In this document: piece by piece, positions 10,598-64,000 of the stretch | Numbering within the stretch: position 1 is the stretch's first letter | Layout of the letters: each line of letters begins with the position of its first letter | From: Antedon bifida | Taxonomy: Eukaryota; Echinodermata; Crinoidea; Comatulida; Antedonidae | Direction: 5' to 3' | DNA length: 64,000 nt | Assembly (NCBI GenBank): GCA_963402885.1 | Contig: OY727095.1 | Location: 9,057,001 to 9,121,000 of the forward strand | Program-made: the position numbers and the translations under genes | Notes under the pieces: generated by a model | What the model was told of the DNA's origin: nothing | Database searches by the model: none | What the model saw: only the letters and a program-made list of their open reading frames with translations

Positions 10598-10664
10598 CCA
10601 TGATATGAAAATCACAACGTAAGGATCTCGTGTCCTGGTGGTCGAACGCTTCAAGTCACCAAAT
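10598..10664 (+). promoter_or_regulatory. 5' leader of the dopamine receptor with two tiny upstream ORFs
   Basis: After the candidate acceptor at 10596-10597 there are two ATG codons before the receptor start. One opens a two-codon ORF (10600-10608), the other a five-codon ORF (10605-10622). Both end before the main ATG at 10665. If this is the transcribed leader, they could lower translation of the receptor. That effect is inference. Confidence 0.4.
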
Positions 10665-11972
10665 ATGTCTACAAAAGCCGTTCAACCTAACTTGTATTCC
10701 GTGACTGTAATCGGACTTACATCGCCGTACAGAACAGTGGTGTTGGATGAAAATTCACTAAATAGTACATATGAATTGAGAGTTCCAACAAGTGCTTTGA
10801 TGAACGATGGATTCGATCAATTATCATCTACAAATTCTTCCGGAAATCTACTTTGCCCTACAGAGGGCAATGCGCAGGTTGCAGCAGGTATTGCACTTAC
10901 GTGCATAACACTTGCAACGTTTTTTGGTAACTGTCTAGTCATCGCATCGGTATTAAATTGGCGACATCTACGGAAAAGAATAACAAATCATTTTATTGTA
11001 TCATTAGCCTTCTCGGACGTTCTCGTCGCTTTACTTGTTATGAGTTTTAACGTTGTTTATACAACGGCTGGATATTGGCCGTTTGGTCGTTTTTGTGATA
11101 TACACACGGCGCTGGATATAATGATGTCAACCGCTTCCATTTTAAATTTGTTTGTTATCAGTTTGGATAGATATTGGGCTATAATGATGCCGTTTCAATA
11201 CCAGAGTAAAATGACAAAAAGAAAGTCACGAATAATGATAATGACTGCGTGGATAGTTTCTGCTCTTTTGTCGTTTGTACCCGTTTTAACTGGAATACAC
11301 CGGGAACCAGAAGATTTAGGACTACTTGATTGTGATATCCCAAAATGTGATTTCGCCTTAAATAGGTATTACTCCGTTATATCGTCTTGTATTAGCTTTT
11401 ACATTCCGTCTCTAATCATGGTTGGCCTGTACTTACGTATATATTTAGAAGCACAAAAACAGGAAAGGCAGATACGTCTTCAAACAAAACTCTCACGTCA
11501 TCAAAAACACGCACGCGGTGAGCGTCGAGCGGCAAAAACGCTTGGAACAATTATGGGTGCCTTCGTTTGCTGTTGGCTGCCGTTTTTTGTTGTAAATTGT
11601 ATCAAGCCATTTTGCAGCGATTGCGTGGGACCTACAACGTACTATGTTGTTGTCTGGCTTGGTTGGATCAATAGTTCACTTAACCCTTTGATATATTCCA
11701 CGAACACTGAATTTCGCAGTGGATTTAAGCGCCTTCTCTGTCGTAAAGCTTTTTACAGAGACCGAGACAATTCTGAATTTACTGCATTGACAAACGTCAT
11801 GTCATTCGTCTCACCAAATAAATCAGTCAATGGAAACGGCAGTTCGACCACGATTGACGCCAACAAAAACCACCATATATCTCCTGAACTTCAAGTGTGT
11901 TTAAACGATATCACAGAGGAACAAACAGAACCATTAAATGGTAAAGAATATGTGCGTATTGATCAAGTATAA
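10665..11972 (+). CDS. D1-like dopamine receptor (class A GPCR)
   Basis: A 435-residue rhodopsin-type receptor in one uninterrupted coding exon. Seven membrane segments are visible. Asp151 in LDIMMSTAS is the helix-3 Asp (3.32) that pairs with the amine. DRY is at 168-170. ISSCISFYIP (239-248) carries Ser240, Ser241 and Ser244, the helix-5 serines that bind catechol hydroxyls. CWLPFF (303-308) is followed by Asn311 (6.55), and NPLIY is at 340-344. The runs VISLDRYWAI, IMGAFVCCWLPFF and GWINSSLNPLIY resemble vertebrate DRD1/DRD5 more than octopamine or 5-HT receptors. Known role of the family: Gs coupling and cAMP increase at the plasma membrane. N-glycosylation sequons occur at Asn33 and Asn57. 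The start chosen is the first ATG; a GTG 27 bases upstream is in frame but unlikely. A splice acceptor (ctttacag) ends at 10597, so an upstream noncoding exon is likely. The exact amine ligand is inferred. Confidence 0.93.
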   Translation: MSTKAVQPNLYSVTVIGLTSPYRTVVLDENSLNSTYELRVPTSALMNDGFDQLSSTNSSGNLLCPTEGNAQVAAGIALTCITLATFFGNCLVIASVLNWRHLRKRITNHFIVSLAFSDVLVALLVMSFNVVYTTAGYWPFGRFCDIHTALDIMMSTASILNLFVISLDRYWAIMMPFQYQSKMTKRKSRIMIMTAWIVSALLSFVPVLTGIHREPEDLGLLDCDIPKCDFALNRYYSVISSCISFYIPSLIMVGLYLRIYLEAQKQERQIRLQTKLSRHQKHARGERRAAKTLGTIMGAFVCCWLPFFVVNCIKPFCSDCVGPTTYYVVVWLGWINSSLNPLIYSTNTEFRSGFKRLLCRKAFYRDRDNSEFTALTNVMSFVSPNKSVNGNGSSTTIDANKNHHISPELQVCLNDITEEQTEPLNGKEYVRIDQV

Positions 11973-17843: not shown

Positions 17844-20800
17844 TCATAAAATTAATTTTTTAATAGCACGATTGCCGAGTTCGTCGTACTCTTTCCGAGT
17901 AATCCAACACTTTTGAAATGTACTCAACGACCCTAAAATAGATCCCCCTATCCATACATTAAACTTTCGTTCCGGTGCAGCTACTACCTTTACTCTCATG
18001 GACTTAGGAGCCAGTGATTTTATTTCCTTCTGGAGCCTCTCGGCAAATCCTGGTATTAGAGAAGTTCCACCAGAGATCACAATACTGCAGCATATGTCAC
18101 GACGTATATCAATACCACACTTCATTATACTGTTATAAACAGTCTGGTGAATGCCGCAATGACCCAGTTCCATCAAATACGGATCAAAAAGAACTTCCGG
18201 ACATCGGAATCTTTCTTTTCCAAGGGTAATCTCGCGACCATCTGCAAGTTGGTAACTCTTTGCTAGTAATGGATTGGACGATGCTGATGCTAACTCTTGT
18301 TGAAAATCTTCAGCGACGTAACAGAGGCTGTCCTTTAATTTTCTTACGCTTTCCATCTCGGCTAAAAAAAAACACATAATTTTTGTTTAATTAAATCTAA
18401 ATGGACAAGCTGTTAAATTCCATATTAATGAATATTTTTACATATGACTTGTTAATCAAGGCTACCTGCTGTTAACAATGATTATTGAGAATATTCTCAC
18501 TCCGTTCTTTGAAACAACATAATCGTCCAATTATGTCAAACGCAATGATAGAAACTACTAGATTATGGCTCGCCCCATTTTTTCATTTTCATTTTTTCAT
18601 TCAAATGGCCTGTTTTATCCTTGACCATTTAACTGGCCCGTTTTTTTCCTTGACCATTCAAATGGCTTGTTCTTTTCTTGATCATTCAATAGGCTTGTTT
18701 TTTTTTTCTTGACCATTCAAATGGCCAGTTTTTTTCTTGACCATTTAAATGGCCTGTTTTTTCCTTGACCATTCAAATGGCTTGTTTTTTCCTTGGCCAT
18801 TCAAATGGCCTGTTTTTTCCCTGACCATTCAAATGGCCTGTTCTTTTTCTTGACCATTTAAATGGCCTGTTTTTTCTTGACCATTCAAATGGCTTGTTTT
18901 TTCTTGACCATTCAAATGGCCTGTTTTTTTCTTGACCATTTAAATGACTTGTTTTTTCTTGACTATTCGAATGGCCTGTTTTTTTTCTTGACCATTTGAA
19001 TGGCCTGTTTTTTTTCTTGACCATTCAAATGACTTTACAGCTCACTATGTTGGTCGGTAATACGGCAATACAATTACGTGCGTAGCGCATATAACGCATG
19101 GGTTCGCGCACTTACAATTTTCAAAATTGTCAAATCGGTTGGTCGGTCGATAAACACTAACTTGAGCACACGACTGCAGCCATGTACATGGCCTTGTCTC
19201 TTGACCATTCAAATGGTATGTTACTTGAACATTACAAAAATGACTGATACAAACCTGTATTCATGAATGTATATCCTCTTTCAGCAAGCAACTGAGCCAT
19301 ATACTGCGTTAGGTCACACCCTCCAAATTCAATTCTTTGAATAGCTTTCTTAATGGCATATCCCTCATAAATCGGTACGATGTGAATCACCCCATCACCT
19401 ATATCCACACTTATTGCACTACCTCTACCGGATGCATAGATTGACATTTGACCTTGGATACTCACATACATTGCAGGTACATTAAATTTCTCAAATAACA
19501 CCTATAAAATAATAATAATATTGATAGTGACTGTCACAGTCACTAAGTGTCTTTTGATGATGGACCATTAGGCTGCACAGAAGAAATCATTTTAATAACA
19601 TAATGGGTAAAACCGTGGAAAAAAATAAATTTCAAGAGTTTTGATAGTCGTTTTATTGGTTTACTGAAATATGACCTAATTAATATTTTGATTCCAACTC
19701 CTTCATCATGCCATTAATGGGCAATTTCTTCTGGTTGGGAAAAAAAACATTGTTTACTGTAGAAGCTCAAGATACTCAAGATTGTTTAAATAGCACCCTC
19801 TACTATACTGTTTGATGTATTTTATAATTTGTATAGCACCCTCTCTTGTTTGGATGCTTTCACAATTAATTCTCCAGATATTTAATTTTTTTTCAAGTTA
19901 GGACTTCAGTGGCGGATCTAGGATCTGACGAGGGGGGGTGGCCACGAAAGTGGCAAACAAGGTGAGTAGCTCCGAGCGGGGGAGGGTTTGGGAGCTAGCG
20001 ACGGTCAATCGGAGGTAGGTTGCATCTTTTTTTTGGAGAGAGAATTAAAGGGGTGGCTAGCCACCCTATTCACCCCCCTAGCTAGATCCGCCACTGGACT
20101 TACTGTTTGTTATATAGGTCATATGGTGAAAATGTATTTATTCTTGTTCCTCTGAACAATACCATAACTTAATAATAATTCTAATACTAACCACTTAAAA
20201 TCTTTTAGTGGAAAGTTGGCATTCATATAGTTACCTTCATAATCTGCTCTCTGTTTGAGTCTGGGTTCATAACTGGTTCCAATACAAGAACTAAATGTTC
20301 CTCTGGCTTGATTTTGAGTTCATTGTAAAAACAATGATGCCATATTTTTTCCATTGCATCCCAGTTGGTTATAACACCACGCTCTATGGGATATTCAATA
20401 TCAAGATTGTCTAACTGTGAATAGGCTTCATCCCCAACATAATATTCTTTGTGCTCCAGTGACTTTTGGTAAACAAAAAATAATAATTTGAAAGATAAAT
20501 AGCCACTAGGTAGGGAAGCATTATTTTTTTTCCTATGAGGTTAAGGCAGAAATCATCAATAATTCATTACCTTATTAGAGCTATGAGTACAGTATTAGTT
20601 ATTACTGACTTATCATTGACATAACAAAAAAAACACAAGATTATAAAATATTATGCACAGCACTGAAAGCACATTTCAATTAAAACATGATTAATCCATA
20701 TATTATGTTTAACTTTACTCTCTCATTCATTAGATAGGCCTATGTAATGTAGCATAGGCTAGGCCTAGATACTTTAACTTGGCTTCAAACCGGTTCTCTA

Positions 20801-32009: not shown

Positions 32010-47907
<15,898 letters not shown>

Positions 47908-50430: not shown

Positions 50431-51139
50431 AAAATACATGTATCCCGTTATCTTAAAAAATATACACTGCCTACAAAAATCGAACAATGCCACTTATCAT
50501 ATATGGTCAATATTGGTATAATAGGCAAACTAAAACAGGTTTCTATGTTCCTAACGTGACCAAGGTACGAGCTATATCAGATATACAGGTCCAGTATCTA
50601 AACAAACCAATGTCTCTTGTTAGAAATATCCCAATGCCTGTTTATCATTCCCAGAATTATATACCCTGGTTGGATGTACCCCTCTCGCTTTAATTTTCAA
50701 GGACCGGGTGTCATCATCCGGCCTTGTGATGCATTAACTTATGCATGCGATATTTAAACTCCGCCCCTTATCTAATATAATTATGACGAGTAATTATGAC
50801 TGGTAGAGTTATATCGAGATATGGTTGTTCGATGAAGCGTGTCGCATTTGTCGATTTGATTCAGTGATCTACAATACATCGGTTATATAGTGGGAGTTTA
50901 TCGCTACGTAATTATTACTACACGGCACTACATTGTTGTTTTTAGTTGAAATCGATTATAACATGTATTGTCGTTGTTGAAGGGCAACAATCGTGGTTAT
51001 ACGCATCAATACTGTCACACTGCTAAAAACACAGAGGCGTGAGGAGCAGCGTTATTACTATTAGTATACTGAAGTTGAAGTTTAAAGTCTTCGGAAACTC
51101 TCTTTCCCTTTTCTGTCACGTGTGTTAGACCCATTCGAT

Positions 51140-54100
51140 ATGGACGCATTACCAACACCTACAAGGGTAGTAGAGGCCAAGTTGGCAACGTCCGACAAGG
51201 ATAAAGTTAAACTTAGTCCAACTCAAGAAAAGATATTGGAGTCCAACTTTAAGCAAAGTAAGAATGTTGATGATATAATGTTGGAGATTATAGCGGCAGA
51301 AGCTGGTTTGAGTGTGAAAGATACAGAGGTGAGTACCGTGTACCATTTCTTATTACATCCGATACCGTATGGACGTTTTACCATACATGTCAGTAATTAA
51401 TCAATTAATTAATCAATTAGTAACAGAAGAACTTGTAGTAGAATCAGATAATAATACATATTATAGTAGTATGAGTATCATAGAAAAGTGCTGGCGATTG
51501 GTAATGTATTACTGTAGTTATATGTATTTTATAATTAGACCTTAAGTTGGGTTTTGAAAACTATCATAGTGGCCTAATAATACTATTTAGACCTAGTGAT
51601 GGTGGCTAGATTATATCATACACAATATACTATTGTGTATCTACATAGGCCAACAGAAAAGGCAAATACTGTATAATGTACACGTTGCTGTTTATGGTGT
51701 TTATGACTAATAAACAACTTCAGTTATTTGGTTTTAAACTTCACTATTTGTATAATTCATATAAGTGCGTTTCGGTTAATCCTTGAAGAATAGAATATAT
51801 TAGAACACTATTAAATTCATATACCGCACATCTAAATCCAATCTTGTCAAGTCCACCACACAACAATAAATATTAAAATTAGCATCAATAATAGATGATA
51901 ATCTCATTATAGTACATGCTTCTAATGCAATGTACATGCATTATGAACCATATTATAATTACTGTTAATGGCTGATCAGAGGGCTATGCTGCCCTAGATG
52001 ATAAAATTACCAGCTGTAGAAAACATCCCACTGTGACTGTGGACTTTAAACGTGAACAAGGAGGTAAATTAACTCCATCATGATTGTGAACAAGCAGCCA
52101 CGATGTTTCAAATGCGTTGTAATAATAATGCAATGTTTAAATCAACTTATACTCGTATCAGATTTACAATTATGTTCTCAATAGCCTGTAGATAATGCAA
52201 TAGTGATTTAAATAAAGTGTAATGACCTTTCTTAGAGAACAAATCTTTTACTCGAAAAAGAAGTTCGTACGTTTATCTGAGATGAAGTCTTCAAGGAAAG
52301 TAATTTACAGTAAAGTATGGACGTCTAATGTCTTCATTCAGGATGACGTCTTCGTAAAGACGTCCCTGGTCTTATTTGAGGTGACGTCTTTGTAAAGACA
52401 TCCCTGGTTTATTTGAGATGACGTCTTCGTAAAGACGTCAGTGGTCTTCATTTGAGATGACGTCTTCGTAAAGAGGTCCCTTAGATACAGTCCTTACTCT
52501 CCAGATGAAATATTCATGCTTTACGTTTACAAAAGAGATGGCGTCCTCGTGAAGACGTCCATGAAACTTACACACAAAAAATACGTCTTCGTAAAGAGGC
52601 CCATGGCCGTTAAGTTTCCAGGAGATATTTCCTCCATTTAATTTAAACTCTTTGAAATAAGACCATGGGCGTCTTTTCGAAACCGACTTTTTTTTTATAG
52701 TAGTCCATATAAACCTTTACTCAATATACTTTCCTTTCAATATATTATTTACTGTTAGCAGTCTGCTTTTAGCATGATTGTTATTGATTAATAGAGTTAT
52801 TATAGGTCATTTCATAATTAACTAACCTCTTCCCATAATTTACTGTCATTTCTCTAATATTTTAAAATAGATCTGTAAAATGTCAATTGACCTTTTGAAA
52901 CGGCTTGTTAGAGGTTTGTTGTTTAGAGGTCTAATGAATTAACTAGTTTTCAAATAGAAGCATCGCAATTAGGCTGAAATCGATGTAAAATTAGTACGAA
53001 TTGAGACTGAAATAGGCCTACATTTGTTTAAATGAATTGTGATGTACTATCAATTTTTTAAGAATTGGAAACTATTTAAAGTCATTTGTGTAATACATTT
53101 GTATTCTACCTCGACCTTTTTATTCTATTTTGTATTAATACAACAATATTTCGAATACATAATAAAGTGGTGTTTATTTTTAAGAAGAACGATGAGAAAA
53201 GTTTCGCTCAGATCTGAATCATACTCGGAAATGACAAAGCATGTCCAGTAGTTTGTTAACCTTGGGTAATAATAAAATAAGTCCAGAGTTTCGGTCCCAA
53301 GACACAAGTCAAAAACATATGTTTTAATGTTAATAATTCTGAATTATAATTGCCCTGTTTCTTTGACCCTCGGAGTTTGTCGAACATCTATGCAAACAGC
53401 GCGACCATAGTGATGTAGTGTTTGCTTGAAGTTGTTTAAATATGGTGTGATCGATATACCTAAAGCTGTCTACACTATCAAACTTTATGTGACAAACACA
53501 TGTGATATGCCCATATGTGGACATGATGATGTCCTATCACTACCATATTTAAGCATATCACTACCATATTTGGCACATCAGATTTGTCAAACTAGTTTGA
53601 TAGTGTACAGAGCTTTATGGTGTGGGCCTTGTATTAATTGATGAAGGCTAGCATTCGTCGGAAACGTTAATACGACAGATATTTCAATTCGGATACGTTG
53701 AGCACGATACGTTTTGAGTCATTCCACTGTTTTAGCAGTAAAGCAGATTTTAATTTGAAAGCCTACTGTTTACAAAAATATACTGACGTATTATAGGCCT
53801 ACGTTCATAATAATTAGTTAGAAACAACGGTCGTACTAGGTCTACAGGTTGTATGCAGATGCTCAATGATGAATTAATTGTGATGACGTTCGGGATGCTT
53901 TTACATTTAATAAAGTAAAGGGTACTCCTTGATTTGTAATTAACAAATCCAAATTCAAAATGCATTTGACTGCATTGACAAAATTAACTGTAATACTAAA
54001 CATTAAAAAAACAGACTTGAGGTATGAAAGTCTAAGGTGCACAACAGTCATCACTGCCCCGTCTCCCCTGCTTCGATTCCAGTCACCGACACGTAGGCCT

Positions 54101-55017
54101 ATACTCTGCTTTTTTTTTTGTTTTTTTTTTATTTTTTTATATTTTTTTATTTTAAGGCATATACTCATTACACTCATCTGATACAGTTTTGATATGATTC
54201 CTTTTGATCATGCTAACATTCAAAATGTTGTCTTCCTTCCTGAGTAGAAAGTGACTGTCCATTTAACACCACCGGTATCATCATTTATCAATGTACTGAC
54301 ACAAACCTAGACATGACTTGAGGCATTCACAGATAATTGTTTTCTTGTTGCTCCATTAAATAACATTATGTGCTCTGTTAGTCGCCGTAAATTCTACCTT
54401 TAGTCCATTAGTGGGATTCAGAACAACACGCATGGGATTAGCATGTCGAGTAATGAAATTAACTGTTTGTAAATTATAGAACAAATGACATTTATTAAAA
54501 CAGTACGAGATGTAATTAATCAATAATATACTTATATTGTGAAAACACAGATATGTGAAATTATGGGCCTATAGACCAAAAAGGCACATACTACGGACGT
54601 TAACGATCGACGATACATAAATATACTGAAAACATAAGAAATACGATAAACCTTGTATTGATCATGACGTCATTTGATGTTAATATTGGTTATCGAGCTT
54701 GGTTCTAGAATGAAAATCTTACTTTTTTTCTGTGGAAAAATGTACATTTATCTATTTATCGTAGGCCTACGGTATTGTAGTATAAACGGATATTAACAGA
54801 CATTAATACTATAGTATTATTTTATTATTGATTAATTACAAAAATAATATTGATATTTATCGATTATTAAAAGTATGCATTTTATAATATGATGCATAGC
54901 ATTTAACGTTTTCTGAAATTATTTTCTTCTTAATTGTATCCTCAGAAATGGTTTCAGAACAGAATAGCATTATGGAGAAAAGAGGAAGGCCTGGCACCGA
55001 GCAGTGGTGGATGGTAA
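51140..55017 (+). CDS. HOPX: HOPX homologue, homeodomain-only protein
   Basis: Two coding exons, 51140-51328 and 54946-55017, give 86 residues (human 73). The homeodomain aligns without gaps: residue number minus 17 gives the homeodomain position. Leu33 (16), Phe37 (20), IIAAEAGLS, Trp65 (48), Phe66 (49) and Trp73 (56) match HOPX. The block IIAAEAGLSVKDTEKWF is the clearest link (human LIAAEAGLSEEETQKWF). The intron falls between homeodomain codons 46 and 47, a position known in paired-class homeoboxes. Known role in vertebrates: a nuclear cofactor acting through serum response factor and HDACs, without DNA binding. Here Gln67-Asn68-Arg69 restores the canonical WFQNR with Asn51, but position 53 is Ile and 55 is Leu, so binding may still be weak. 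The start is the first ATG. AATAAA occurs at 55314. Confidence 0.93.
52345..52610. repeat. Array of small hairpins built on GACGTCTTCGTAAAGACGTC, HOPX intron
   Basis: Four units at 37-39-bp spacing start at 52345, 52383, 52420 and 52459. Degenerate units follow near 52541 and 52589. Each holds an 8-bp inverted repeat (GACGTCTT / AAGACGTC) around a 4-base loop, and most are preceded by TGA, giving TGACGT half-sites of cAMP-response elements. Spacers share TTTGAG and CCCTGGT words. The array is intronic. Confidence 0.8.
53461..53617. mobile_element. MITE family A copy in the HOPX intron
   Basis: Starts TAAAGCTGTCTACACTATCA and ends GATAGTGTACAGAGCTTTA, with two internal ACCATATTT units. Confidence 0.85.
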
Positions 55018-57529
55018 ATGGATGAAAGAACATGGCAGGCCTAGGCCTAAATGTTTCCACGGGTGCTAGTTGATCAGAATCAGGACTGTTCAAACAGAAA
55101 CGTATCGCGTGCCTTAGAATATTGAATGTGAAACATGGCTACAACTACTTTATAAATAATTTTGAGCTTCAGAATATCAATGTTTATTAAATACTTATTA
55201 AAGGTAAACAGGGCGTTGGAATTGAAAATCATATACTTTTTGAAGTATGCGTCTAGATTGTGAATTTTATTCCATATTGTAAAAATGAAGCCTTAGCATA
55301 CGTTTAAAATTGAAATAAATGTTGGAAATAGTCCTATAGTATTATATTATACTCCGTATAACCTGATAATGTGAATCTTAATAATTGTAATCTAGATACG
55401 GTAACTCGATATCTAGTAGTGACTTGATACGCTTTATAATTTCCAATAATAGCCTTGCTCTTTATAATCGCCACCAATTATTTGGTAACTTTCATTCACT
55501 ACAATTCAGCCAGTAGTATGAATTATAATACGGAATGGGGATACTAGATTAGAATACCAAAATTCCATTCTGCCAACCATCGACCGTTTTCGCTTCAACG
55601 CCTAATAATGCATTGTTTCTCCAGTGTAAGTACTATAGGCCTAGAGTAATATTGTTTACCATGACAAAACGAAACTTTTTCTGTAATGGATAGGCTACTC
55701 AGTCTGTGGTTCGTCGACCAGTATTTTTTTCGATTTGTGGGGAAACGTTGCGTTACATAATTTAAAATGTTACGTTAAACTACTGGTAATCATCTAAACT
55801 GTTTCTTCTTAATGTTATCATTAAGGCCTGCTCAATTTACGAATGAATCAATTCACAACTGTGTGCTGTATATTCTGGTTTTGATGTATATTTTTTGTTT
55901 ATCTCTATTGAATATCATACTTATCAAATGTGTTAGTCTTTCTTATGTTGTTAAGATATAAATAATACGTTGATTTTCAGATAATAGCTGCTATCATAAC
56001 GTGTGTGTCTGTGTTTCAACATTATTTGTGCAGTATGACAATTTTGTTCAATTAATTGTCTCCACATCTATTGTAAGATGCTTGTAAATAAAATATATAA
56101 TTAGGAGTATACACTTTTTAGAATATTATATATATTAAAAATGTAATATTTATATATGGATATATTATTATATTTTGTGTACATTTAAAATTCCATGTGT
56201 ACGATATATTGGTAGTAGTAGAGGTATACGCACTTAGTTAAATAAGGTTATGTGAGTCATGGAGTCAATTCTGATTGAACCAAAACCACTAAGTAACACC
56301 ACCAAGTATCATAATGAGACAGAAAGAATAGTGTATCACTGTATTGATAGTATTTTAGCCTATAACTGTTGGAGTGAATGAAATAAAAGACAATACGTCA
56401 CACATGGCCGTAGTTATGGTTGTTCAGAAATTGCATTACTACTTCCCAGTTTGTGAATTGATTTGAATTGCTATACGATCTAATTAAGCATGCAATTATA
56501 GTACCGTAATAATAAAGCACTTGGATATGAATGGAAAAGGCTCACGGGCAAATACTTTATAGGGGCGTTGCTGAGATTTAGTGAATGGGCCTGTATAGGG
56601 GGAATGCAAACAGGCTAAAATAAGTAGGCCTAAACCTCGTCCATTATACTACAAAGTTTGGAAAATATCATGCAGTTAAAGTGTACTCTAATAGCACTGA
56701 ATTAAACCCGGAAAGTAGGCCTACACGCGACTATACTCCGTGTAAAGATCGATAATTGCATCAGTTGACGTTCCAATTTTCTATTTATGATTATCAAGAG
56801 CAATTGTTATCGCATAATTTAGAACGGAAATTACTTAATTTAGTCTCTGGTTTGTCATTGAATATTGATCCAATTTGAACATCACGTACGTCAACCTGGT
56901 GGCGAAATGGAGGTGATGATGTCATGTAATGAATTAAAATCTGTAATAATCAAGTCCGAATCTCTTCCCTTTATTATTAAAAATGATATAGGCCTAATGA
57001 TATTTAGTAGATTGAATTGAATAGGCATATGGTGTAAATACAATATGAAATAAATATTCAGATTCATGATATATAATATTATTAAGATTATAAAAATGCT
57101 TTTATTAACAATTTAAGAAGATAATCATTACAAAGGGAATAAAACCATGCGTACATTGACTTATCATACGATTAGTGTAAATCCATTTCTACCGATTCTC
57201 GGTACTGTATCTATTTCCGAAGTATCATAGGAATATTTGGCAACACAACATCAACCTAACCCTTAACGTTCCAAAATGAGATGCTGTATTACTAAATATT
57301 CCTATGAATATGAATTGATAGTATGTGGAGATGCAGCACTGGGACTCGGGTCATTTCTTTCAGTTTCAGACCAAGACATGAGGCTGAATTAACATATACA
57401 AAATCCCGGATATGCGTACATTATTTTGTTGTTATATTTGCTACCAAAGTAGACCTAAACATATAGATGAAATTTTATATAAAGAATAAACAAAATAAAT
57501 ATACATTTTATAATTCATTGTTTGATCCC
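55018..57529. other. Convergent 3' ends of HOPX and the FAM20-like gene
   Basis: No coding exon seen. About 57190-57350 holds a diffuse inverted repeat (GATTCTCGGTACTGTATCT / GAGATGCAGCACTGGGACTC) that also occurs near 2850-3025 and 13275-13470, an old palindromic element family. Confidence 0.5.
55314..55319 (+). terminator. Polyadenylation signal AATAAA of HOPX
   Basis: Canonical hexamer 297 bases after the HOPX stop codon, on the same strand. Confidence 0.5.
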
Positions 57530-60500
57530 CTACACATTCCCATTGTCCACTTTGCGGTAGTCTTTTGATATTAGCATTATTGTATCAAGGCGGCGGTCAA
57601 GCGCTTCAAAGTGTCCATCGCTAAGGATGTTGTTTAAAGAGTCACGTCTTAATGAAGCCTTCATCAAAGCTCCAAGTTTTCTATTTGACGCCAAGTGACT
57701 TAAGTGTGTCCAGGTTCGGTTTGATATTCTATGATAAGAAAGAAAAGCGACATTTAAATAGAACAGATGTGTTAAATTTCTGTTTGTATTTATAAATAAA
57801 ATATCATAATATTCATTTTATCATAACTATTGTACACTCAGCAGTCAACATTTTCCGCATTTTCTATAGGCTAATCAGTTTGGGCTTTGTAAAATCTTAC
57901 GCTCCTCATTAAGAAACTCTCGATTTACGAGGACCCATAAGACGTCATGGTAATTAATGCAGTGACGTGATGCCTTGCTCGATTCCTCCCCATAGTTTGG
58001 CGCGGATTCTTAAGCCTGTCTACACTACAAACTTTATGTGACAACAAATGTGATGTGCCCTTATAGTCATGACGATATCATATCACTACCATATTTGGGC
58101 ATATCACTACCATATTTGGGCACGCCACACTTTTTTGTAAAACTAATTTGATAGTGTATAGACAGAGCTTTTAGGTAGTGGTCCAGAAAAAGACAAACGA
58201 CACACATGTTTTGCGGTGTCTTCCCTATGTCCGTCGCAAATTGAAGGCTCCTATTAAAAACCTACCGTTGACATTGTGTAAGTGGGGCTAAAATCCGTAC
58301 GTCATCATCTGTGTAATTTCCAAACGATTTGCCGTGATCATAATGTAGAAACATTGCCGACGTTCCCAGGTCAGCAAAATAGGCGTAGGCATGTCTGTCG
58401 TAATTGCCTGTTGTAATATATATGTAAATATAAAATATTATATTTTCCTTAAGAGAATAAAAGTACAGTAGACCGTTGAGCCAATCAAAATTGTTAGAGG
58501 TAATTGCATTTGCATTGCTTTCTACGATAGACGATGATGAACATTGAATGCAACAATAATCACAAGGCAAAATAATAACAAAAACTAGAATACAATTTGA
58601 AGTTTGTTAATTTAATAAGCAATGGTAAAAATTGTTGTTATTATGATGATCAGCTTCAGCTGGATGGACCACCCTCGTAATGATTGTTGAAATAAACAAT
58701 ATGTCTTGTGATTATTCCTCGACCTCTTAAAAGGTCCGGTTTTTATGGTCATACCATGGAGGTGTAGAACTTGTTTTTAAAGATCTTCTGGAAATGTTTA
58801 AATACCATAGTACACTTAACAAACAATTGATAATCTTACGGAGAAGAAAGTCCAAGATGGATGAATCAATCAGGTTGAGAAGAGCTTGTTCTTCGGACTT
58901 AAATTCGTTCTAAAACAAAACAAATAATAATGGTTTACGTTTTTATATAATATATTCATCACAAAAATAGCAAACATGCCTAATTCAATGAGTTCGTTTG
59001 CGTTCGAAACTAAACCCAGGCCTAAACTGTATACCAAGACCTAATTGTCAATGTCAAGAATTAGTTCTAAGTTATGTAATATATAAAATTAAATTAAAAA
59101 ACTCACCAAAAGCACCTCGTCACAGATATTTCTATTTTCCCACCTGTGTAAAATAAATAAATACAGGAAAATCAAATTTTATACGGTCAACTAATTTGCA
59201 CTTTTGTGCATCCGTTTAGTTACTCAAAATACACCTGTATCTGGACGCAGCCTGGTAATAGCAACAATATACAAAACAATGGACAGAACTTGAAAAGAAG
59301 GTTTGATGGTCTATACATCAGATGTGTCAATGGCTTATGTAAGAGCAAGAGTAAGAACAAAATAAGAAACAATAAAGAGAAGAACAATAAATAATACAGT
59401 AATTCTTACATTTTAATACGATCTGGATTGAATGTCCAAGGGTTAACTTCCTCGTGCCACGGTTTGAAGACGTACGTAGTCATAGAAATCTCGAGCGATC
59501 CATTGACTGCACATATCAACTTACTTGGTTTACAGAAAGGACCTTGGCACACCCCGTAGAAACAATATTCACCATCTATCAATAATAAATTTTAATATGC
59601 CATTATACCTCTTATCAAAGTCCACTTCGAAAAACCTTTTGTTGTTAAGAGGTTTTGTATACAAATTTTGCATTTATATATTCTACAATAGGGTTATTTC
59701 TGGTCCTGAATGGTTCTTCCTGCCGCTAAAGATCTGTCTACACTGTATACAACTAGTTTGACAAAAAAAGTGTAATGTGCCCAAATATGGTTGTGTGATG
59801 CCCAGATATGGTAGTGATGTGACATCATCACCATATATGGGCATATCACATTTGTTGTCACATACTAAAGTTTGATAGTGTAGACAGAGCTTTATTTGAT
59901 TATTTAAAGGTTGTATATTATTCTACGTATTAATTGCACACTTACTCTGAATCAAGAATGTGTTGAGAAAGGCTTCATCTTTCACAAGATCACGAAATTC
60001 GCCAGTAATATTGATAGTTCTTCCAACTGTTACCGGTGCTCGATTGAATCTAAGAATTCTAAAGCCAATCATTTTAAGTTAATAAAAACAACAATTAAAT
60101 CAGATAATTTAAGTAATATTTATAAGACAGTATTTTAAGACAATAATAAAAGTGAAAACATTCTGTACATAATTTATTAAGAGAAGTAGAGACGATAAGT
60201 AAGTTACTTATTTACACCACACACACCCTCTCAACACACTACAGAGAAACTATGGCAGTGGAAACTTGGGGTATCTTCCCTTCCTCTTCAAGAGGGACAG
60301 GCGACGGCGAAAAGAGGCTGGATAGTCAACAAACCTGTCTAGATGATACGCTGCAATCTCCGAGGTATGTCTTTCAATATCACCTATCCAATCTCTTCCA
60401 GTCATAAAGTCCCTTCTAGATCTGTTAATTATAACAATAAAAATATTACAAATAAAAATGGATTTCTATACGTAATTAGAGGTCTACCTATTCTATCCTA

Positions 60501-63394: not shown

Positions 63395-63614
63395 CTACCC
63401 ATCCATAAGAACACTTTCTCTATTTTTGTCCAATAAACAGGTTTTTACAGTTTCTAACACTGTTTTAACTCGCCGATCAAGAGCCTCCAAGAATTTATCG
63501 TTGACGACGGGCGACAGTACATCTCGTGACAATGATATACGCATTAGGGTGCTCAGTTTATTTTTTTTGTCTTGTGAAAGCTCTGTTAGTCTGTTGTAAG
63601 TAGATCTACGAATT
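63395..63614 (-). CDS. Last exon of a second FAM20 (FAM20C-like) kinase gene, cut by the window edge
   Basis: The exon encodes IRRSTYNRLTEL through LEALDRRVKTVLETVKTC and stops at 63395-63397 (72 residues). It aligns with the C-terminal end of FAM20C (IRKSTYLRLQ...LEALDRRLRVVL) and with exon 9 of the gene at 57530-61429. It begins with the same one-base phase after a TTTTAG acceptor. The remaining exons must lie beyond the right edge, since the gene reads leftward. It is closer to FAM20C than its neighbour is. This is partial, so no statement on activity is possible. Confidence 0.85.
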
Positions 63615-64000
63615 CTAAAACAAAAACAAATTTTATAATCAGATGATAACACAAAAAACACAAAAGTATCATCAATCCAAGCAAATCCTTGTCATTTGAT
63701 TGGTTGATTTTGTATCACATGCTACAATATGTATCATTCTCAAGGATTGTGGGTAATATATGTTATACTCATAAAGATGTTTTTCACACTCAAATCATAA
63801 ATATTCCTTATTTGTATAATATTTTATTGTTAGTGGATAAAATATTATTTGCATATTGTATAATATTCTCCATGTCTGATCAATTATACACACTATATGT
63901 TCAATCAAGCATGGATAACCTAATCTAAAATTAATCTGTAGCTCTTTCTTGTTATTGATGAATTATTATTGATAATAATAATGAAACTTCATACTGGTAG

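Follow-up and report, generated by a model that had tools for sequence, protein, structure and literature searches.

The 64-kb window analysed here, a 64,000-nucleotide (nt) stretch of the crinoid Antedon bifida (contig OY727095.1, positions 9,057,001 to 9,121,000), probably carries on its forward strand a functional HOPX-family gene, with two exons, for a homeodomain-only protein of 86 amino acids. That probability applies to the whole explanation, in which HOPX-family identity, a co-regulator role and a retained Asn51 are taken together. Coding exon 1 (51140-51328) covers residues 1-63, comprising the N-terminal tail, the basic arm and homeodomain helices 1 and 2 (positions 1-46), and is delimited by its open reading frame, a GTGAGT donor and a tblastn match to mouse HOP, the mouse HOPX protein of PDB entries 1uhs and 2hi3. 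A phase-0 GT-AG intron of 3617 nt (51329-54945) falls between homeodomain codons 46 and 47. Coding exon 2 (54946-55017), placed by a mouse HOP tblastn match and a helix-3 match, supplies residues 64-86 with the recognition helix and an EGL tail, followed by a TAA stop. The junction reads ACAGAG/GTGAGT ... ATCCTCAG/AAAT in phase 0, with GAG/GTGAGT at the donor and 13/17 pyrimidines in the acceptor (TATCCTCAG). We infer the join of the two exons from homology and these splice signals. The spliced frame of 261 nt encodes 86 amino acids and the stop, an in-frame stop lies upstream of exon 1 at 51083, and the start context has G at -3 and +4.

Numbered from W48, homeodomain positions 1-46 (residues 18-63) are encoded at 51191-51328 and positions 47-60 (residues 64-77) at 54946-54987, with WFQNR (positions 48-52) at 54949-54963 and the Asn51 codon at 54958-54960. 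Direct reading confirmed what a preliminary description of this locus had reported, namely WFQNR at residues 65-69, Gln50, Asn51, Ile53, Leu55, Lys5 and the coordinates. No Pfam family other than Homeodomain exceeds its cut-off in the protein, which appears, as expected of HOPX, to be short and little more than a homeodomain; a further upstream exon may exist. The nearest AATAAA, a candidate polyadenylation signal by pattern only, lies at 55314-55319 (+), with ATTAAA variants at 55186 and 55197. A 24-nt unit with a palindrome-like core, GACGTCTTCGTAAAGACGTC, is present six times within the intron, at 52346-52606, spaced start to start by 38, 37, 39, 81 and 42 nt. The sequence TAGGCCTA occurs 38 times in the whole window, about 64 times the base-composition expectation, and might mark the lineage.

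Pfam, PDB, tblastn and acceptor-site scores together show that the homeodomain is not a chance match. The Pfam profile (PF00046) matches residues 21-75 at 36.4 bits (cut-off 22.9; expectation value (E) 4.6e-9). A PDB sequence search with the Antedon protein (best 60 of 74 distinct sequences at E up to 10) is led by the two entries of mouse HOP (46.9 and 46.8 bits, E 2.9e-11), followed by Pax6 (25.6 bits), ceh-37 (18.0), ZHX3 (16.1) and ZHX2 (15.2). Kinship with Zhx/Homez was rejected on the gap between the last two scores and the 46.9 bits of HOP, and designed toroids and colicin immunity proteins among the sequence matches were taken as unrelated. The corresponding search with mouse HOP (best 60 of 100) lists Gsc (34.3 bits), Pitx2 (31.9) and aristaless (31.2) after both HOP entries. 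When a 57-residue stretch of mouse HOP was compared with the window by tblastn, exon 1 (E 1.2e-4) and exon 2 (E 3.5e-4) were matched separately and in order, meeting at one and the same mouse residue, and the next match had E 1.6. Scoring each of the 6157 AG dinucleotides (both strands) by the helix-3 homeodomain match that follows it put 54946 first (score 57; next 25). Fold comparison was set aside as proof of HOPX, with mouse HOP absent from the 50 matches listed and designed proteins as the top three. Searches of virus and prokaryote contig collections, with the protein and with its alignment to mouse HOP, returned no relatives, a result uninformative on animals.

Both a tree and rare residues held in common support membership in HOPX. 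The comparison set comprised 36 homeodomains over positions 8-60: the Antedon domain, mouse HOP (PDB letters with the inserted residue cut out; the sole HOPX sequence compared) and 34 others. The Antedon protein and mouse HOP are mutual best matches in this set. The preliminary description had proposed a tree with paired-class homeodomains as a check on the HOPX assignment, and the assignment was supported: IQ-TREE (LG+G4) paired the two with an SH-like approximate likelihood ratio test (SH-aLRT) value of 98.1 and an ultrafast bootstrap (UFBoot) value of 99, and FastTree supported the pair at 0.990. SH-aLRT/UFBoot support was 98/99 after removal of seven divergent homeodomains, 97.8/81 without columns 25, 31, 44, 47, 51, 53 and 55, and 99.7/99 on positions 8-46 alone. 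I15, N19, T45 and K47 are common to the two and found in 0/34 of the other homeodomains; these four exclusive shared residues are the most for any of the 630 pairs (next, three). At position 53 the two proteins have Ile or Leu, and all 34 others have Arg.

The Antedon homeodomain has K3, K5, K7, N25, L31, D44, K47, Q50, N51, I53, L55, R57 and K58. Positions 25, 31, 44, 47, 53 and 55 are DNA contacts in known homeodomain-DNA structures, with 25, 31, 44, 53 and 55 contacting the backbone. Of 27 columns each kept in at least 80% of 23 paired-class (PRD) homeodomains, nine are changed in the Antedon protein and mouse HOP alike (8, 13, 25, 31, 34, 44, 47, 53 and 55), two in mouse HOP only (32 and 51) and four in the Antedon protein only (9, 26, 42 and 46). 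Asn51 is present in 34/34 other homeodomains, as is Lys or Arg at position 55, which is Leu in the Antedon protein. The protein thus shares with HOPX the loss of conserved contact residues, including R53, and lacks the replacement of Asn51 that marks the vertebrate form. The stepwise loss of DNA binding proposed in the preliminary description finds support at the contact positions: six are lost in both proteins and Asn51 in mouse only. The PRD pattern (positions 16-26), as given in PMC2491631, is failed by the Antedon protein, mouse HOP, DUX4a and DUX4b, and the ANTP-PRD pattern from the same source by the first three. Read by eye, the latter failure lies at position 53 alone in the Antedon protein and at 51 and 53 in mouse HOP; it has been reported for vertebrate HOPX (PMC2491631). 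Net charge over positions 7-60 was discarded as evidence on DNA binding, the values overlapping (Antedon -1, mouse HOP -3, others -1 to +10).

The gene combines its features as a mosaic and does not mark a midpoint between paired-class homeodomains and vertebrate HOPX. The proposal of such an intermediate stands in so far as Asn51 is kept, and fails for the domain overall, which is more remote from the paired class than mouse HOP is. Its tree branch is 0.92 as against 0.46 for mouse HOP; against the 23 PRD-class homeodomains, mouse HOP scores above it in 21/23 and, by identities, is ahead in 18, level in 1 and behind in 4. P26, Q46, E42 and T9, kept by mouse HOP, are gone. The intron at codon 46/47 had also been read as a sign of an intermediate, but human HOPX has the same intron, as do many paired-class members (PMC2211742), so its position reflects shared ancestry. 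A better argument, missed in the preliminary description, is the normal 60-residue spacing: F20 and W48 are 28 residues apart, as in PAX6, and 29 apart in mouse HOP. The single residue inserted between helices 1 and 2, which gives the vertebrate form its 61-residue domain, is missing, and the gene is therefore to be read as a variant of the family rather than the vertebrate form.

Like vertebrate HOPX, the Antedon protein is homeodomain-only and has IAAEAGL, T45, K47, an aliphatic residue at 53 and EGL after the domain. It differs from mouse HOP in WFQNR versus WFKQR (the latter, attributed to mammalian HOPX in the preliminary description, is correct for mouse, the sole mammal compared), in Q50/N51 versus K50/Q51, in L55 versus E55 and in lysines 3, 5 and 7. 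With Gsc, Pax6, Pitx2 and Otp of the paired class it shares the 60-residue spacing and Asn51, whereas these keep Y25, R31, V47, R53 and K55 and pass both patterns. According to PMC2211742, human HOPX has one residue inserted between helices I and II, carries the 46/47 intron and does not bind DNA, and mouse HOPX is 73 amino acids long, 61 of them homeodomain. Finding HOPX in an invertebrate is not, by itself, novel. Hopx has been reported from molluscs (oysters and a snail), having earlier been reported only from Chordata (Paps 2015, PMC5322547), and honey bee GB16549 was listed in 2009 as a match of mouse Hop (E 9e-8; PMC2656531); a 2025 review speaks of HOPX homologs in vertebrates (PMC12608687). 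These invertebrate members, of the same family by report, are likened here by description only, as is Lopx (lophotrochozoan only homeobox), a divergent family near Hopx (PMC6118893). Among the best-ranked literature matches listed (25 of 350), with limited coverage of subscription papers, none treats Asn51 together with HOPX, and none of the matches listed for echinoderm, Branchiostoma or invertebrate HOPX gives a residue-level account.

We consider it reasonably likely that the protein acts as a co-regulator by binding other proteins and binds DNA specifically only weakly or not at all, as would be expected because the usual residue is changed at six contact positions. The domain would still fold as a homeodomain and act mainly by binding other regulators, like vertebrate HOPX. 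Mouse HOPX is described as not binding DNA, antagonising SRF and recruiting HDAC2 (PMC3876040, PMC9179269), and HOPX as an exception among homeodomains in this respect (PMC9179269). The usual residues at 25, 31, 44, 53 and 55 and V/I47 have gone, leaving Q50, N51, R57, K58 and lysines 3, 5 and 7, and Asn51 and the 60-residue length would be retained ancestral states. On this reading, phosphate contacts were lost first on the way to vertebrate HOPX; Asn51 disappeared and the insertion arose afterwards. A HOPX relative with Asn51, normal spacing and six changed contacts makes that order testable. Should the protein prove unable to bind DNA, Asn51 is insufficient for binding by itself, and the Gln51 of vertebrates is a minor change that came late; should it bind, the co-regulator role arose after the HOPX family.

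Some results qualify this reading. With mouse HOP removed, FastTree sets the Antedon domain beside LMX1A (0.79), and with the Antedon domain removed, mouse HOP falls beside the LIM group (0.54); neither is thus easily placed by itself, and it is the residues they share that pair them. Gln44 of mouse HOP also occurs in 6/34 other homeodomains, so that loss at position 44 is less clear for mouse.

The alternative that fares best, though we give it clearly less credence, overlaps the favoured explanation on gene and function and holds that Asn51 is no relic: its persistence would be accidental or owed to a protein contact, or it would have been regained, and it would say nothing about the order of loss. 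The wide divergence elsewhere in the domain, visible in the branch lengths, and the comparison with a single vertebrate member fit this account, but with N51 in every other homeodomain compared its retention needs no extra change, and by the genetic code a return from Gln to Asn takes at least two base changes. It is unlikely, in our judgement, that the protein is a working intermediate in which Asn51, Gln50 and the lysine arm still engage TAAT-like DNA, be it with low affinity or with the help of a partner. The residues for it are there (Q50, N51, R57, K58 and lysines 3, 5 and 7), and helix-3 net charge (positions 42-58) is +3; the mouse HOP value is +2, and the 34 others range from +2 to +7. 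Against this, Ile and Leu stand where all the others have Arg53 and Lys/Arg55, the usual Y25, R31, R44 and V47 are replaced, and mouse HOP, which has lost the usual residue at the same six positions, is reported as non-binding (PMC3876040). A living HOPX-family protein that reads DNA via Asn51 with most phosphate contacts gone would be a preserved step from a DNA-binding paired-class homeodomain toward the non-binding vertebrate HOPX; we regard this as doubtful, but if it is true the order of loss could be tested directly.

Convergence on HOPX by another divergent paired-like family, such as Lopx or a lineage-specific one, is very improbable. The long branches, the missing insertion and the placement beside LMX1A would suit it, and the Lopx clade is described as separate from all PRD families except divergent Hopx (PMC6118893); yet rare residues are shared with HOP, the two are mutual best matches, both exons match HOP and the pairing survives removal of the contact columns. 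A decayed copy, or two exons from different genes, is scarcely credible: the frame is open across both exons with good splice signals, an upstream stop and a suitable start context, and each exon matches HOP separately up to the same residue.

Elsewhere in the window, the search for tRNAs found none, and nothing matched Rfam at gathering score. A rhodopsin-type receptor occupies a single open frame at 10623-11969 (+; 7tm_1 E 8.9e-68), with the D1 dopamine receptor as its best solved relative (E 7.5e-83). Exons of an actin-family gene lie at 17847-18386 and 20226-20540 (-; Pfam Actin E 9e-55 and 6.4e-22). The HOPX gene is closely preceded by ankyrin-repeat exons at 38754-39107 and 44659-45501 (+), perhaps of one gene. 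Downstream of it, two exons at 57533-57817 and 63398-63691 (-) match the C-terminal Fam20C kinase domain; because their profile positions overlap, they are perhaps tandem Fam20 copies.
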